Positions 2,073 through 7,791 of a stretch of 64,000 nucleotides of DNA are shown here, piece by piece. How positions within the stretch are numbered: position 1 is the stretch's first letter; every line of letters begins with the position of its first letter. This stretch comes from an uncultured Clostridia bacterium. Lineage in GTDB: Bacteria > Bacillota > Clostridia > Christensenellales > Borkfalkiaceae. Where the stretch lies: positions 62,001 to 126,000 of the forward strand of contig CANPZD010000002.1 in the NCBI GenBank assembly GCA_947589085.1, written 5' to 3'. The position numbers were made by a program, and so were the translations under genes. The notes beneath the pieces were generated by a model, which saw only the letters and a program-made list of their open reading frames with translations, did no database searches and was not told where the DNA came from.

Positions 2073-3080
2073 ATGTGGGACGTCGCGCTGGATGCGCTTC
2101 TGGATACGCTCAAGTTGCTGCCTTTCCTCTTTGTTCTCTATATCCTGATCGAACTCATGGAGCACAACACCCGCGTCGGCAGGCCGCGCCGCGCGCTTTC
2201 GGGGAAGTGGGCGCCCGCGCTCGGCGCCTGTACCGGACTTGTGCCCATGTGCGGGTTTTCCGTGATGGCCGCAAAGCTCTACGAGCACCGTCATATTACG
2301 ATCGGGACGCTCATCGCCGTGTTCATCGCAACCAGCGACGAGGGTCTGTTGGTACTTCTTCTCTCCGAACATATCGCATGGGGTCCGAAATTATATTCGC
2401 TGCTCGCGATGTGCGGCTGCAAACTTGTTCTCGGGATCGCGGCCGGATACCTATTGGATCTGTTGGTGAGAAAAAAACCGTCGCCGCTTCCCGAACATAC
2501 CCATAACGGCGAGGCGCATATCCACGAAAAATCTGTCCACCATGTCCGCGAAGGAGCGCAATCGGACATCGGATCCCACGACCATGTCTGCGATGAGGAG
2601 AGCGAGGACCATGCCGACCATGCCCATGGCGCATGCGCATGCGACGAGCTTTCGCCCTGCGAGCACAAGAAGGAAAGCAAGGTGGAAATGTACCTTGTAT
2701 CTCCGCTCTTGCACGCTCTCGAAGTGGCGGCATTCGTGCTGCTTGCGAATCTTGCGTTCGGGTATCTGTTCTACGGATTGGGGGAAGAGAACGTGACGGC
2801 GTTCATGCAGGGCGCCGGCTATTGGATCCAGCCGATCGTATGCTCTCTGATCGGCGCGGTCCCGAATTGCGCTTCGTCCGTCGTTCTTGCGGAGGCATAT
2901 GCGCTCGGCGGGATCGGGTTCGGCGGACTGTTGGCCGGACTTTCGGTCAACGCGGGACTGGGGTATCTCGTTCTGATGAAAAAGAACAGTTGGAAGCAGG
3001 GACTTCTGATTCTGACGGGAATGTTTATTTTCGGCGTTGCCGTCGGCTATGCGGCAAATGCCGTCGGACTTGCATTTTGA
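2073..3080 (+). CDS. Putative multi-TM heavy-metal (manganese/arsenic-type) exporter, ArsP_2 family
   Basis: This 335-residue polytopic membrane protein resembles the family annotated as a putative 10-TM heavy-metal exporter (also called putative manganese transporter). Two hydrophobic halves (about 1-135 and 210-335) each carry a short conserved loop: TGLVPMCGFS with ATSDEG in the first, GAVPNCASS with AGLSVNAGLG in the second. They are joined by a hydrophilic loop at about 141-205 that is very rich in His, Asp, Glu and Cys, a likely metal-binding segment. The start is an ATG after GAGGAGGT behind a good promoter. The dehydrogenase-like gene follows after 27 bases, so they are probably co-transcribed. 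The transported metal cannot be read from the sequence. No known metal riboswitch was recognised in the leader. Confidence 0.75.
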   Translation: MWDVALDALLDTLKLLPFLFVLYILIELMEHNTRVGRPRRALSGKWAPALGACTGLVPMCGFSVMAAKLYEHRHITIGTLIAVFIATSDEGLLVLLLSEHIAWGPKLYSLLAMCGCKLVLGIAAGYLLDLLVRKKPSPLPEHTHNGEAHIHEKSVHHVREGAQSDIGSHDHVCDEESEDHADHAHGACACDELSPCEHKKESKVEMYLVSPLLHALEVAAFVLLANLAFGYLFYGLGEENVTAFMQGAGYWIQPIVCSLIGAVPNCASSVVLAEAYALGGIGFGGLLAGLSVNAGLGYLVLMKKNSWKQGLLILTGMFIFGVAVGYAANAVGLAF

Positions 3081-3107
3081 AAATTTCATGATCGTACAGA
3101 GGTGGAT

Positions 3108-4202
3108 ATGCCGATTTCCGGATATTCCGCACCTATGACGAACTCCCGCACGGGAGAAGAATACGAAAGAGGCGGACTTCGTTTCGGCTCGTCCGCGGAG
3201 GAAATTTCGGGGTTTCTCGCCCGCACGGCGGGAAAGGCGCTGCTCATTTCCGACGGGACTGCGCTCTCGGCGCTTGCCGCCGCGTCCGCCGCGCCGCGTA
3301 CCTGTTCGGTCGTGCTGGAAGAGGACGCGCTTCCGCTGTTTGCCATTTCCGACGGCGTCGGGGGCGTCGTCGCGTCGGGGAACGCTTGCACGCTACGCGC
3401 GGCGAGATGTTTTGCGGAGATCCACGGCATACCCTGCCTGCTCCTGCCCGTGTGCGGCGCGCTGGACGGCGTGTTCGAACGCACCGGAAGCATTGCGATC
3501 GACGGCGCAAGGGCAGAACTTCCGCTGGCGCAGGGCGAGGTCGTATGCGACTTGCCGCGCATGCGCAAGTCATTGCCGTTGTCCTATGCGCGGCTGCTCC
3601 TTTCGCGGCTGGCGATCTTCGAAGCGAAGGCGTTGGCGCGCTTTCGCATGGGGGAATATCCCTCTCTCTGCGAACGGGCGCTCTCCCAAATCGAATTTTC
3701 GGAGGATCCCGCAAAGATTGTGCTCTCCAACGCCGCGATCCGCAAGGCGGAAGCGGAGGGACTTCCCTCCGGAGAGGGGGCGGCGCTTTCGCGTGAGATC
3801 CCCGCGGAAACCGCCTATCGGGCGCTGTGCGCGCTCTACGGCGCATTCTTCCGAAGCGGCAAGCCGCGGCGCTATTTTACGCCCGATTACCGCGCCCGTG
3901 CGGCGGAAGCGCAGTGCGAGTTTTCCGCCTGCGTGCTGCCCACGCGGGAGGAATACGCGGCGCGCGCCCTTGCACTTGAGAGAATGCGCGGGGCATGCGA
4001 CGCGGAGCTTTCCTCGATCGTGCGGGAAAATCCGGCGCACCTGCGCAGGATCCGCGCGCTGGGGGGAGAGATCGCGGGAATCCGCGGGATCCCGCCGCAA
4101 CTGAAAACGCTTCCGGAAAAAAATCCCGGCGGGCTGTCCTCGGTGATCCGCGATTTCGGGCTGATGGAATGGGAGACGGCCGCATGCGTGCGCGGCGAGT
4201 AA
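3108..4202 (+). CDS. Degenerate iron-containing alcohol/glycerol-1-phosphate dehydrogenase-like protein
   Basis: The order of elements in this 364-residue protein recalls iron-containing alcohol or glycerol-1-phosphate dehydrogenases: a Rossmann-like start (ALLISDGTALSAL), a Gly-rich turn (SDGVGGVVASGNA), GIPCLLLPV, then ALDG with SIAIDG where relatives bind nucleotide. The family's Asp/His metal-ligand set was not found downstream, so if related it may lack catalysis. The start is uncertain: ATG 3108 was preferred over GTG 3102 because the AGAGGTGG box sits at 3098-3105, although that spacing is tight. It follows the metal transporter by 27 bases in an apparent two-gene operon. Treat the family call as tentative. 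Confidence 0.45.
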   Translation: MPISGYSAPMTNSRTGEEYERGGLRFGSSAEEISGFLARTAGKALLISDGTALSALAAASAAPRTCSVVLEEDALPLFAISDGVGGVVASGNACTLRAARCFAEIHGIPCLLLPVCGALDGVFERTGSIAIDGARAELPLAQGEVVCDLPRMRKSLPLSYARLLLSRLAIFEAKALARFRMGEYPSLCERALSQIEFSEDPAKIVLSNAAIRKAEAEGLPSGEGAALSREIPAETAYRALCALYGAFFRSGKPRRYFTPDYRARAAEAQCEFSACVLPTREEYAARALALERMRGACDAELSSIVRENPAHLRRIRALGGEIAGIRGIPPQLKTLPEKNPGGLSSVIRDFGLMEWETAACVRGE

Positions 4203-4263
4203 AAGATTTCGCAATAAGCGCGAAAAACGGCCGAAAGCGTGTTTTGCAGCCGTCCGGCCGTGT

Positions 4264-4269
4264 TATAAT
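4264..4269 (+). promoter_or_regulatory. -10 element for the sigma-factor cassette
   Basis: TATAAT at 4264-4269 lies 43 bases before the STAS gene. No convincing -35 hexamer is present at 16-18 bases (TTGCAG at 4244 leaves only 14), so the promoter may need an activator or another sigma factor. Confidence 0.5.
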
Positions 4270-4283
4270 AGAATCAATCAGGA

Positions 4284-4301
4284 CCGCGCCGAACGGCGCG
4301 G
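4284..4301 (+). other. Leader stem-loop directly upstream of the ribosome binding site
   Basis: A perfect GC-only stem of at least 7 pairs (CCGCGCC with GGCGCGG, loop GAAC) sits about 8 bases after the predicted transcription start and abuts GAGGAGGT. It could stabilise the 5' end or modulate access to the ribosome binding site. Confidence 0.6.
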
Positions 4302-4312
4302 AGGAGGTAATC

Positions 4313-4621
4313 ATGCAGGAACTTACGCTGATCTCCCGCACGCCCGAGCTGTGTTTCGGACTTTCGGGAGAGATCGATTCACAGAATGCCGACGAATTTT
4401 TTGCTGCCGTGTCGGAAGAGTATCGGAAGAATCCTTCCGATCTCGTGTTTGACTGCGCCAAGCTTGCCTTTATCGATTCGACGACCCTCGGCACATTTGT
4501 CAAACTTCTCAAGCGCGTAAAGGAGAAGGGGCACGTCATGAAACTCAAAAACCTGCAGCCGCGCCTCAAAAAGCTGTTTGTCATCTGCGCGCTCGATACG
4601 GTGATGGAGATCGAAGGATGA
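4313..4621 (+). CDS. STAS-domain anti-sigma factor antagonist (SpoIIAA/RsbV-like)
   Basis: This 102-residue single-domain STAS protein fits the family length. The conserved turn FIDSTTLG places the phosphorylatable serine at Ser56, matching the known SpoIIAA/RsbV site. In the family the unphosphorylated form binds the anti-sigma ATPase and frees the sigma factor; phosphorylation by that ATPase switches it off. It is the first gene of four overlapping ones (stop/start overlap ATGA with the next), strongly implying translational coupling and a partner-switching module. The ATG follows an excellent GAGGAGGT box. Whether it belongs to a sporulation or a general-stress pathway cannot be told from sequence; a forespore sigF operon is possible but the extra ATPase is atypical. 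Confidence 0.88.
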   Translation: MQELTLISRTPELCFGLSGEIDSQNADEFFAAVSEEYRKNPSDLVFDCAKLAFIDSTTLGTFVKLLKRVKEKGHVMKLKNLQPRLKKLFVICALDTVMEIEG

Positions 4622-4980
4622 AAACGCTATTGAAAATCTATGTCCCCTTGGGGAGCGAAATCATGACGACCCTGCGGCTTGCGACCGGCGGCGTCTGTTC
4701 TCTTGCGGGGTTGGATCTCGACGCGAGCGAGGACTGCAAGGTTTGCGTGACGGAGAGCCTGCTGCTCGTATCCCATGCAGGCTTTGCGGCGGCGGAGATC
4801 GAATTTTCGGAGGAGGACGGCCTCTGCGTCCGCGTCTGCGGCGCGGGAGCGCGCGGCGAGGCGAAACCTGCCGCGGAGGATGAGATCTCTGCGGCCCTTT
4901 TGGAAGCGCTTGCCGAGGGCGTGCGCACGGAGAAAGAGAACGCGGCGCTGCGCGGCGTCTCGTTCAAGTTCGGGGTTTGA
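4618..4980 (+). CDS. Degenerate RsbW/SpoIIAB-like anti-sigma ATPase domain
   Basis: This 120-residue protein aligns by eye with the start of anti-sigma regulatory kinases: a beta strand (IYVPLGSEI), then LRLATGGVCSLAGLDLDASEDCKV, then TES at 45-47. The N-box Asn that coordinates Mg-ATP should fall at position 50, four residues after Glu46, but is Leu. No glycine-rich lid motif is visible later. It therefore looks like a kinase-dead paralogue that may still bind sigma or the STAS protein. It overlaps its neighbours on both sides (ATGA, TGATG), so it is co-translated with the STAS protein and sigma factor. The family call is inferred from pattern and context. Confidence 0.65.
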   Translation: MKTLLKIYVPLGSEIMTTLRLATGGVCSLAGLDLDASEDCKVCVTESLLLVSHAGFAAAEIEFSEEDGLCVRVCGAGARGEAKPAAEDEISAALLEALAEGVRTEKENAALRGVSFKFGV

Positions 4981-5705
4981 TGGAAGAGCGGGAACTTTTT
5001 GAACGGTACCTGCAAACCGGCGACGTTGCCCTGCGCAATCGGATCGTCGAGAAGTACCTCTATATTGCGGCCGTCATCGCAAAGAAATTTGCGGGGCGCG
5101 GCGTCGAATACGACGACTTGTATCAGGTCGCCGCGCTGGCGCTCATCAAAGGCGTGGATCGTTTCGACCCCTCCAAGGGGATCAAATTTTCTACGTTCAT
5201 CACGCCCACGGTCACGGGAGAGATCAAAAATTATTTCCGGGATCGTTCGCGGTTGGTGCATTTGCCGCGCAAAGTGGCCGAACTCCGCACGGCGATCCGC
5301 AGAGTTTCGGAGGAGTTTTCCAAAGAGAACGGCAGAACGCCCACGGCGTGCGAGATCGCCCGAACGTTGAACGTCTCCGAGGAAGAGGTGGTGCGCTGCG
5401 CGGAAGCGGGCGGCGTCGTTTCGCTCGACTACCCCGCCGACGATGAGAACGGCGCAAGCTTCCATGACGTGATCCCAGAAGAGGGCGAGAACGAATTCGA
5501 AAAATGGGAAACGCGCGACGCCGTGGAATCCGCGCTCGGCACGCTTTCCGAAGCGGAGCGCATGCTCGTTCGTCTGCGCTTCGGGCAGGAACTTTCCCAG
5601 ACGGAGACGGCCCGCCGGATGAACGTTTCGCAGATGTACGTTTCGCGGATGGAACGCAAGGTGCTTGCCAAACTCAAAGAGACGATGAAAAAGGGGATGG
5701 CGTGA
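4980..5705 (+). CDS. Sigma-70 family RNA polymerase sigma factor, SigB/SigF/SigG group
   Basis: The 241-residue protein has region 2 (RNRIVEKYLYIAAVIAKKF, then DDLYQVAALALIKGVDRFDPSKG and FSTFITPTVTGEIKNYFRD), region 3 (RTPTACEIARTLNVSEEEV) and region 4 with a helix-turn-helix (LSQTETARRMNVSQMYVSRME). Length and domain order match the SigB/SigF/SigG group. The start is ATG 4980, overlapping the previous stop as TGATG; a TTG just upstream is less likely. Its stop overlaps the next ATG. Flanking by anti-sigma ATPase genes and a STAS antagonist shows that its activity is controlled by partner switching. Target promoters are unknown. Confidence 0.9.
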   Translation: MEERELFERYLQTGDVALRNRIVEKYLYIAAVIAKKFAGRGVEYDDLYQVAALALIKGVDRFDPSKGIKFSTFITPTVTGEIKNYFRDRSRLVHLPRKVAELRTAIRRVSEEFSKENGRTPTACEIARTLNVSEEEVVRCAEAGGVVSLDYPADDENGASFHDVIPEEGENEFEKWETRDAVESALGTLSEAERMLVRLRFGQELSQTETARRMNVSQMYVSRMERKVLAKLKETMKKGMA

Positions 5706-6058
5706 TGGAGATCCTCGACTACAATGCGATGAAAACCGCGCTCGCGCGGATGTGCGCGTGCTTTGCCGCGGAAAACGTGCCGGAAAACGCCGTTTTCGAC
5801 AGCAAACTCGTCGCGCACGAGTTGCTCGCCAACGCCCTGCAATACGGCGGCGGCAGGGCGTATTTCACGTTTGAGCGGCGCGGAGACGAGATCCGCATCA
5901 CGGTGCGCGGAGAAAGGGAATTTCGTCCCCCGGAAAAAACGGATCGCGTCGGCGTGGATGCGGAGCGGGGACGGGGACTTTTCCTCGTCGACGCGCTCTC
6001 CGCCGAAAGAAATTACAGCGCGGAAAACGGGATCAGCGTCGTCATTCTCATTCGCTGA
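5705..6058 (+). CDS. Anti-sigma factor serine kinase (RsbW/SpoIIAB-type HATPase)
   Basis: This 117-residue protein keeps the GHKL ATPase signatures: an N-box HELLANA with Glu39 and Asn43, and a glycine-containing lid RGRGLFLVD near residues 89-97. It should bind ATP, hold the sigma factor inactive and phosphorylate the STAS antagonist. The ATG overlaps the sigma stop (TGATG), so it is the last member of the four-gene operon; a bidirectional terminator follows. Standard operons place one ATPase between antagonist and sigma. Here the position between them is taken by the degenerate copy and the intact enzyme comes last. Confidence 0.78.
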   Translation: MEILDYNAMKTALARMCACFAAENVPENAVFDSKLVAHELLANALQYGGGRAYFTFERRGDEIRITVRGEREFRPPEKTDRVGVDAERGRGLFLVDALSAERNYSAENGISVVILIR

Positions 6059-6104: not shown

Positions 6105-6135
6105 AAAATTCCCCGCTTCCGAAGCGGGGAATTTT
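6105..6135. terminator. Bidirectional terminator
   Basis: A nearly uninterrupted palindrome with the core CCCCGCTTC / GAAGCGGGG is flanked by A-run and T-run arms. It can end both the sigma cassette (+) and, about 30 bases after its stop, the convergent membrane-protein gene (-). Confidence 0.85.
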
Positions 6136-6165: not shown

Positions 6166-7791
6166 TTAAATGTGATTGATATAGTTGTAAATTTTCTCGA
6201 GCATTCCCGTGGAAATATAGGGACGGACCTTCCCGAGGTATACGAAGAAGTGACGGAAGAATTCCTCATTGTTGCCACCGATCTCGTAGACGGGCAATCC
6301 GAAGTTCCCGTGCACCAATCCGATGAACAGATCCCCGAATTCCTTCTTTTCGTCGTTCGAAAGACTGTTGAAGAAGGGATCGTACACATACTGCCCGTAG
6401 ATGAGCTGCTGCTGCGCGGGTTGCGGTGCGGGCTGCGGCGCATATGCGGGCGCGGGCGCTTGAGGCGCTGCGGGCGCGGGTTGTTCGGCTTCGGGCATTT
6501 CGCCTCTTGCGAGCGCCGCCATTCTATTTTCGAATTCGCTCATCGGCGTCTCTTCATAGGGAACGGGTTCCGCGGGCGCCTTGGGTGCGGGCTGCGGCGC
6601 GGCGGGCGCGACCTGCTGAATGACGGGCTGCATCACGGGCGCATAATAGGGAGCGGCCTGAATGGGATAGAACATCATCGGCTGCGGCATCGGCTGGGCG
6701 CCGGGTGCGCCGGCCGTCGCGGGAACCGTATTGATATTCGTCACATATGTGGGCGCGACATGATTCTTGACGACGGCTTCTTCGTCCTCCTCCTCGTCGT
6801 CGAAGAGTTCGTCGTAGAGTTCTCTCTTTCTCTGCGCGGATCTCTTGATGGCCAGCACAAGGAAGAAGATAAATGCAACGAAAAGAACCGCAAGCAGCAG
6901 AATGGTCGCGATCAGCTGCGAGGTTCCCTTGAACAGACCCGCAAAACTCTTGATCGAGAGCGCATAGAACACAAAGTAAAGCACAGCCGCGATCAACAGC
7001 AGGCAGTACCAGAATGCCTCAAACGCATAGCCGCGTTTTGCAAAGATGCGGCAAACTGAGATCACGACGCCGATCAGGAGCAGGTAGTAGAGAACGAATC
7101 CGATGAGGGTCTGGATCGCTTTGCCGCTCAGAAGGGAGATTTGTCCCGCGGCTGCGATGATCGCCGTGCCCGACATGGAAGAACCGGGGAAGGTGAAACC
7201 GAAATATGCGCACAGAGCGAGGACCACGCCGATACAGCCGATCACGCCGCGGCCCTTATTGACGATGATTGCCGTGACCCCGAGCAGGATCAGCGATACC
7301 GCCGCGATGATGCAGAGGGGAAGATCGAACGAAGAGACCGACAGTTTCTCGGACAGCAAGCGCACGGAAGCCACGGTCGCGAAGAGAAGATACGAAACGG
7401 TCACGAGGGACCCGCTGACCAACGCACAGGTCTTTGCCGAAGCCTTCGAACAGAGAGAAACGATCATGCAGATGATCGAGGCGAGCACTGCGATCACGAG
7501 CAGAATGACGAGAGCAAGTTCCAGATAGACCCAAATTCCGGTGACCGTTGCGGGATGCCCGCCGAAGAGCTGTTTGAATACGACCCATACAAAGGAAAAC
7601 AGCGAACCTTCCATTTTCTTCGGGCCGCCGACAACGGTAAAGGCGCCGGCGAATATGGCTTTCCACTGTGCGAGCATTCCGAGGAACAGGCCTCCGGCCG
7701 CAAGCACAAAAAAGATAATGGCAAAGGTGCGATAGAGGGCGGCATGATAGTTGACTTCCCGTACCTGGCCGTTTTCTTTATCGTTTTCCAT
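6166..7791 (-). CDS. Uncharacterised polytopic membrane protein with Pro/Ala-rich linker and C-terminal domain
   Basis: The 541 residues split in three. The first ~310 hold about eight hydrophobic spans. A cytoplasmic stretch follows with an acidic patch (ELFDDEEEDEE) and a long low-complexity linker rich in Pro, Ala, Gln and Met. The last ~70 residues form a compact ordered segment (FFNSLSNDEKKEFGDLF, then LPVYEIGGNNEEFF and MLEKIYNYI). The linker and globular tail suggest a cytosolic module tethered to the membrane. It is transcribed alone from a consensus promoter with a GGAGGT box and ends at a shared terminator. No function is recognised. The tail looks like a conserved domain of unknown function, which an HMM search could test. 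Confidence 0.8.
   Translation of the reverse strand: MENDKENGQVREVNYHAALYRTFAIIFFVLAAGGLFLGMLAQWKAIFAGAFTVVGGPKKMEGSLFSFVWVVFKQLFGGHPATVTGIWVYLELALVILLVIAVLASIICMIVSLCSKASAKTCALVSGSLVTVSYLLFATVASVRLLSEKLSVSSFDLPLCIIAAVSLILLGVTAIIVNKGRGVIGCIGVVLALCAYFGFTFPGSSMSGTAIIAAAGQISLLSGKAIQTLIGFVLYYLLLIGVVISVCRIFAKRGYAFEAFWYCLLLIAAVLYFVFYALSIKSFAGLFKGTSQLIATILLLAVLFVAFIFFLVLAIKRSAQRKRELYDELFDDEEEDEEAVVKNHVAPTYVTNINTVPATAGAPGAQPMPQPMMFYPIQAAPYYAPVMQPVIQQVAPAAPQPAPKAPAEPVPYEETPMSEFENRMAALARGEMPEAEQPAPAAPQAPAPAYAPQPAPQPAQQQLIYGQYVYDPFFNSLSNDEKKEFGDLFIGLVHGNFGLPVYEIGGNNEEFFRHFFVYLGKVRPYISTGMLEKIYNYINHI

Follow-up and report, generated by a model that had tools for sequence, protein, structure and literature searches.

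The window, as we call the 64,000-nucleotide stretch of an uncultured Clostridia genome analyzed here, carries four overlapping genes that encode a STAS antagonist, an ATPase-like protein, a sigma factor and a second ATPase, in this order. We consider it probable that this cassette, from a group of gut Clostridia, works as a SigB-like switch of the general-stress, partner-switching type and divides between two proteins what RsbW and SpoIIAB each do alone: the ATPase-like protein, a pseudo-ATPase, would be the anti-sigma factor, and the ATPase encoded last would be the kinase. In the textbook switch, nucleotide state and sigma release are coupled, because one protein holds sigma and also uses ATP on the antagonist. 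A conserved natural split of these jobs within a single operon would make this coupling testable. The work on the cassette also yields a candidate sensor (a PAS-PP2C protein with four cysteines), a promoter motif and an initial set of target genes.

The coordinates of the cassette (Table 1) agree with those given in an earlier sequence-only reading of the same DNA; the three overlaps measure 4, 1 and 1 bases. The host genome comprises 1.38 Mb in 28 contigs and is 96.4% complete, and several genomes of Candidatus Gallimonas are among the named relatives found with its sigma gene (68-73% identity). Contig C19 of the same genome holds a separate spoIIAA-spoIIAB-sigF operon (L001) with complete ATPase motifs, which rules out that the cassette is the sporulation operon.

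Table 1. Features of the four-gene cassette and its immediate surroundings (positions in the window).
Feature	Position	Strand	Remarks
Putative SigB-type promoter GTTTTGC-N14-GTTATA	4241..4267	+	Weak copy of the conserved GTTTGAA-N14/15-GGTATA
Ribosome-binding site GGAGGAGGT	4300..4308	+	5' of the STAS gene; direct sequence reading
STAS anti-sigma antagonist, 102 aa	4313..4621	+	D55-S56-T57 invariant, 94/94
Pseudo-ATPase, 120 aa, probable nucleotide-independent anti-sigma factor	4618..4980	+	Leu50 where the N box should have Asn; R20, D39, K41, T45, E46 invariant, 95/95
SigB/SigF/SigG-type sigma factor, 241 aa	4980..5705	+	Other possible start TTG 4977
Second GHKL ATPase (HATPase_c_2), 117 aa, probable STAS kinase judging by its sequence	5705..6058	+	E39/N43 of the N box and G89-R90-G91 present; Gly69 in place of the G1-box Asp
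Perfect inverted repeat, likely bidirectional terminator	6105..6135; arms 6105-6119 and 6121-6135	.	Direct sequence reading; separates the cassette from the convergent gene (6166-7791)

Directly 5' of the cassette lies a gene for 366 amino acids (3102-4202, + strand) without Pfam match; in some relatives the DNA upstream of the cassette appears, by eye, to hold a different C-terminus than that of this gene. Farther upstream are an ArsP_2-type heavy-metal exporter with a His-rich stretch (2073-3080, + strand) and, at the window edge (109-519, + strand), the C-terminal part of a Clp-type ATPase (ClpB_D2-small domain). The convergent gene on the other side (6166-7791, - strand, 541 aa) encodes a membrane-protein-like product with a Pro/Ala/Gln-rich C-terminal half, also without Pfam match.

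The sequence-only reading had noticed a Leu in the first ATPase-like protein where the N-box Asn should be, and the alignment with RsbW bears this out: Leu50 stands four residues past the invariant Glu46, and the Asn of RsbW likewise stands four residues past its Glu. None of the 95 pseudo-ATPases of the family has the Asn (81 have Leu, 11 Ile, 2 Met and 1 Val), nor does any of the 43 found order-wide, so that homologues with an intact N-box are absent from both sets. The degeneration goes beyond what had been claimed, since the G1 box, the G2 box and the lid are lost as well; neither DxGxG nor GxGL occurs in residues 75-100. The protein has no Pfam match and only weak matches to RsbW over residues 4-54. 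In a profile search of the PDB, the best match is RsbW of 6m36 (E 2.2e-7), followed by the chains 8jzt_B and 8ih8_C, annotated as "Anti-sigma-F factor RsbW" (E 3.5e-5 and 3.9e-5), which we take to be mycobacterial UsfX and which have Arg rather than Asn at the N-box position of the profile alignment. AlphaFold, run on the 95 sequences, confidently predicts a strand, two helices, two strands, a helix and two strands (pLDDT 95.4). Judged by topology, this order is GHKL-like.

Loss of the ATP site has not been accompanied by loss of the residues for partner contact. RsbW contacts RsbV in the crystal through Arg23, Asp42, Lys44/Ser48, Glu49 and Tyr118, and SpoIIAA Glu21 and SigF Asp148 would clash (PMC7340262). 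R20, D39, K41, T45 and E46 of the pseudo-ATPase align with RsbW Arg23, Asp42, Lys44, Ser48 and Glu49 (RsbW numbers matched through the offset of the RsbW5-145 construct). Order-wide, Glu46 and Asp39 are found in 43/43 sequences, Arg20 in 42/43, and K or R at position 41 in 42/43; T45 is conserved in the family only. The Arg20 of SpoIIAB contacts sigma. Measured against the bifunctional RsbW and SpoIIAB, the pseudo-ATPase thus lacks the N-box Asn, G1, G2 and lid, and retains the STAS-contact residues, with T45 in place of Ser48. It resembles proteins of the UsfX/RsbW1 kind in that it is GHKL-like, as far as the model can tell, has no catalytic motifs and adjoins the sigma gene. Since it occupies the spoIIAB/rsbW position and keeps the contact residues, and since the last ATPase has no conserved contact Arg, the pseudo-ATPase would most likely be the anti-sigma factor itself, acting independently of nucleotide, rather than an extra branch of the switch. 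A decayed pseudogene is ruled out by the residues that are invariant across 95 sequences. What holds up from the sequence-only reading is that a partner-switching operon contains a constrained pseudo-ATPase next to another ATPase.

The second ATPase had been described as intact, which holds only in part. Glu39, Asn43 and Gly89-Arg90-Gly91 are invariant in 95/95 sequences, and the match to PF13581 is above the cut-off (38.6 versus 27.4 bits). The G1-box Asp, the adenine-contacting residue of GHKL proteins, is lost in 93/95, of which 92 have Gly, Ser, Ala or Cys there and the remaining one has Glu; D is found in 2/95, and an Asp stands one place after the G1 position in 6/95. ATP binding by the second ATPase is therefore doubtful in the family of the window. 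Among 21 second ATPases from other families, 17 have the N box, the full DxGxG of the G1 box and the G2 box, next to a pseudo-ATPase without the Asn; these 21 rows were placed by automatic alignment, which may have shifted individual residues, and the 17 include several close relatives from one genus. The four without full G1 box are L136 and L158 (f29), L146 (f2) and L147 (f22). The second ATPase of L147 seems decayed, with Ile for the N-box Asn and Gly-Ser-Arg for Gly-Arg-Gly.

A conserved contact Arg is missing from the second ATPase: an ungapped count from Glu39 arrives at L13, and no conserved Arg stands at A12 or R15 either. Its model, from an alignment of 94 sequences (L087, where the gene is cut, was omitted), has a pLDDT of 91.6, with values of 69-78 over residues 71-90. 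The profile matches RsbW in the PDB (E 0.0013), and a PDB search with the single sequence gave irrelevant matches only. The natural reading of these sequence features is that the second ATPase would be a dedicated STAS kinase. In a tree of the sigma factors, the G1 states of the accompanying second ATPases cluster; this tree, which draws 18 of its 60 rows from the family set of 95, has an unresolved backbone, and the number of G1 losses is not readable from it. Two of its rows (L158 and L184), with branches near 6, were taken as wrongly cut sequences, and the label "none" for L149 and L167 reflects contig ends only.

The gene-neighborhood search that the sequence-only reading had proposed returned the same gene order in 108 of the 109 related loci, so that the arrangement is not due to chance; in the order, seven further families have it too. 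The lone exception (L053) has no STAS gene and starts inside the cassette at a contig end. The 109 loci are the best 80 of 481 sigma matches plus 29 found with the pseudo-ATPase in family genomes, the window itself (L083) being excluded from the latter; many are one genome from two collections, and there are 93 or 94 unique sequences per gene. At E < 1e-10, the pseudo-ATPase is found in 63 of 151 family genomes, and two further genomes have matches of only about 0.01. Across the order, the profile matches in 67 of 297 genomes and 30 of 125 genera. Forty-three order-wide places were inspected with STAS and ATPase models built from the window's family, which may miss distant genes. The four-gene cassette is present at 21 of them outside this family (f2, f17, f21, f22, f25, f29 and f31) and at five within it. 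Two places are cut by contig ends, two loci in f31 have STAS, pseudo-ATPase and sigma without a second ATPase, twelve in f4 and f23 have pseudo-ATPase and sigma only, and one pseudo-ATPase is solitary.

Phylum-wide, the pseudo-ATPase profile finds matches in 23 of 398 genomes at 1e-5. Nine of the loci (L227-L235, in f125, f34 and f38) are like the cassette in that an ATPase-like protein without N-box Asn, G1 or G2 lies between STAS and sigma. They are unlike it in having an Asn one or two residues before the N-box position, and in that a wider look around four of these lineages' loci found no second ATPase with the family-built models, which distant ones may escape. Eight further matches (L237 and L241 among them) are ordinary RsbW with Asn. 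As the family-built models found no second ATPase at the twelve loci in f4 and f23, the two in f31 and the four outside the order, one is not obligatory beside a pseudo-ATPase.

Both Pfam and NCBIfam name the STAS protein an anti-sigma antagonist, and at its partner positions F53, S56 and K87 are conserved in 94/94 sequences, I91 in 93/94, D22 in 79/94 and R84 in 66/94. The sigma factor has all three Pfam regions (2, 3 and 4) above cut-off and scores 223.1 bits with TIGR02980, just under the cut-off of 234.35. Its acidic residues E135 (95/95) and E136 (E or D in 91/95) lie where the alignment places SigF Asp148 and its neighbors, and may be exact equivalents. To judge by sequence, the genome appears to have what a SigB-type switch calls for, a STAS protein with Ser56 (94/94) and PP2C phosphatase genes.

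There are two SpoIIE-type PP2C genes in the host genome, and one of them tracks the cassette. It encodes 352 residues with a PAS domain (L113:997-2052, contig C3) and is not linked to the cassette. Counted at E < 1e-80 (61 genomes), phosphatase and cassette occur together in 60 of the 151 family genomes, the cassette alone in 3 (G002, G012 and G142), the phosphatase alone in 1 (G104, without cassette match) and neither in 87 (Fisher p 3e-37, kinship ignored). The co-occurrence follows genera, in that 5/6 genera with cassette and 0/12 others have the phosphatase; weaker matches in other genera span the PP2C part only. All eight loci inspected (the host genome and seven others of the same genus) share C-x6-C-x5-C-x2-C in the PAS part, and the protein could possibly serve as a redox or metal sensor. 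By eye, its gene lies directly behind a diacylglycerol kinase-like gene.

The DNA 5' of the operon has a conserved promoter-like motif. A pattern composed after inspection of the sequences, GTTT-N13/19-GKTAYA, is present in 69 of 94 unique upstream regions, whereas 20 shuffles gave a mean of 0.4 and never more than 2. Its common form, GTTTGAA-N14/15-GGTATA, resembles the sigma-B consensus. Earlier patterns had found a B. subtilis-like form in 18/109 regions and a TATAAT-like box in 78/109. The window's own promoter is ambiguous because a sigma-A-like TATAAT (4264-4269) overlaps it. The loose motif has four hits in the window (0.61 expected), namely the operon and 16641, 37926 and 49224; behind the latter three we saw no convincing gene start. 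In the host genome, a looser motif has five sites (control 0). Genes for hsp20 and an HslV-type protease are clear, one site (L195) lies, by eye, ahead of an acetyltransferase-like frame, and no convincing gene was seen at the other two (L193 and L197).

With the strict motif, we found 52 sites in 36 of the 61 genomes of the genus (control 5), of which 50 were examined, leaving out G428:C4 and G429:C7. These sites precede hsp20 (16), the operon (12), flavin reductase (4), CobW-type (2) and membrane protein genes without Pfam match (2), as well as 14 single genes that include those for a trypsin-like protease, a band-7 protein, LemA and SecB. In L259 a contig end cuts the locus and leaves a short frame only. 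Two of the 12 operon copies (L219 and L223) were called in the wrong frame, and are counted because they share their spacers with the operon's upstream sites in L070 and L005. The strict motif has 47 sites in 38 of the 63 cassette genomes (reversed control 7), and 14 sites in 12 of the 88 other family genomes (control 12), where it is not enriched. A chance origin of the motif is ruled out by the shuffles and the reversed-pattern controls. Presumably it is the cassette sigma, not SigF, that reads it.

Together, the computed gene order and conservation, the loss of ATP motifs, the retention of contact residues, the co-occurring phosphatase, and the promoter motif with the genes that it precedes suggest a model, for which we infer all binding, kinase and phosphatase steps and the stress signal. 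The pseudo-ATPase would hold sigma and need no ATP for it. Unphosphorylated STAS would dock on the sigma-holding face of the pseudo-ATPase and displace sigma. The last ATPase would not hold sigma, and would instead phosphorylate Ser56 of STAS, which would keep STAS off the pseudo-ATPase. Under stress, the PAS-PP2C protein, encoded elsewhere, would dephosphorylate STAS and so free sigma, which would then transcribe hsp20 and other genes as well as the cassette operon itself. Several observations tell against the model: the lost G1 Asp of the supposed kinase, the loci where no second ATPase was found next to the pseudo-ATPase, the variability of T45 beyond the family, the unlinked phosphatase with its genus-wise distribution and four exceptional genomes, the poor match of the window's own promoter, and the three loose motif sites of the window behind which no convincing gene was seen.

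The state of the G1 box bears on what the second ATPase does in this family. It is conceivable, if rather unlikely, that a single-operon split switch is widespread in the order, and that the family's kinase half, which has no G1 Asp and keeps the N box and Gly-Arg-Gly, uses another nucleotide or is a non-catalytic partner, which would leave sigma under a switch that lacks any ordinary ATP-binding anti-sigma kinase. We think it unlikely that the second ATPase has ceased to be a kinase altogether and, like the RsbW3 of Mycobacterium smegmatis, is a non-catalytic partner of the pseudo-ATPase that releases sigma, with Ser56 kept for binding only. The G1 Asp lost in 93/95 would fit, and a precedent exists, since RsbW3 is described as an antagonist of RsbW1, which it binds, and as increasing SigF-dependent expression although it does not bind SigF (PMC7693655). 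However, mere protein pairing would not demand the invariant N43 and G89-R90-G91, and the invariant Ser56 and the co-occurring PP2C phosphatase also argue against the idea.

The sequence-only reading had proposed a switch with a second branch, added by the pseudo-ATPase, so that sigma would be bound by both ATPase-like proteins, one under nucleotide control and the other not. Both are indeed GHKL relatives within one operon, but the second ATPase lacks the conserved partner-contact Arg, and the separate kinase of M. smegmatis does not bind SigF (PMC7693655). With the pseudo-ATPase in the spoIIAB/rsbW position and in possession of the contact residues, a linear, divided switch is simpler, and we regard the two-branch arrangement as very unlikely. 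It is still possible to think of the second ATPase as RsbT-like, that is, as an activator of the PP2C phosphatase instead of a STAS kinase, and in B. subtilis the sigB operon does include RsbT, a second GHKL protein. We consider this most improbable, as stressosome STAS partners were not found and the phosphatase carries its own PAS domain. The only two STAS matches in the genome (96% complete) are that of the cassette and spoIIAA, which rules out a stressosome of the B. subtilis type (RsbR/S/T).

Our preferred reading, the divided switch, has relatives among known systems. Like rsbV-rsbW-sigB and spoIIAA-spoIIAB-sigF of B. subtilis, the cassette has the gene order STAS, ATPase-like anti-sigma, sigma, and it shares with these systems the partner-contact residues, a PP2C phosphatase and a SigB-like promoter motif. 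RsbW and SpoIIAB of B. subtilis are anti-sigma factor and kinase in one, whereas in the cassette their counterpart lacks the ATP site, and the operon goes on with another ATPase gene. The premise that known sigB-type systems have a single ATPase proved too narrow, since the B. subtilis sigB operon has RsbT besides RsbW, and M. smegmatis has both RsbW1 and RsbW2. Among the titles and abstracts of open-licence PMC papers listed, we found no description of the four-gene operon or, for Clostridia, of an RsbW without kinase function, and among the matches listed there was no paper on the general stress sigma of these Clostridia.

The split of anti-sigma factor and kinase is nevertheless already known, because it has been shown in M. 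smegmatis. There, RsbW1 is the anti-sigma factor and RsbW2 a kinase that does not bind SigF and is the sole phosphorylator of the STAS protein RsfB (Oh et al., 2020; PMC7693655). The cassette would be like this SigF system in that a kinase-less anti-sigma factor is encoded next to sigma, and STAS has a GHKL kinase of its own. It differs in that M. smegmatis has separate loci, rsbW1-sigF and rsfB-rsbW2, whereas the Clostridia have all four genes in one overlapping operon, and in that RsbW2 keeps its N, G1 and G2 motifs, whereas the second ATPase of the window's family has lost the G1 Asp (PMC7693655 for RsbW2). This G1 loss is a puzzle; the cassette as a whole would be a single-operon variant of the known split.
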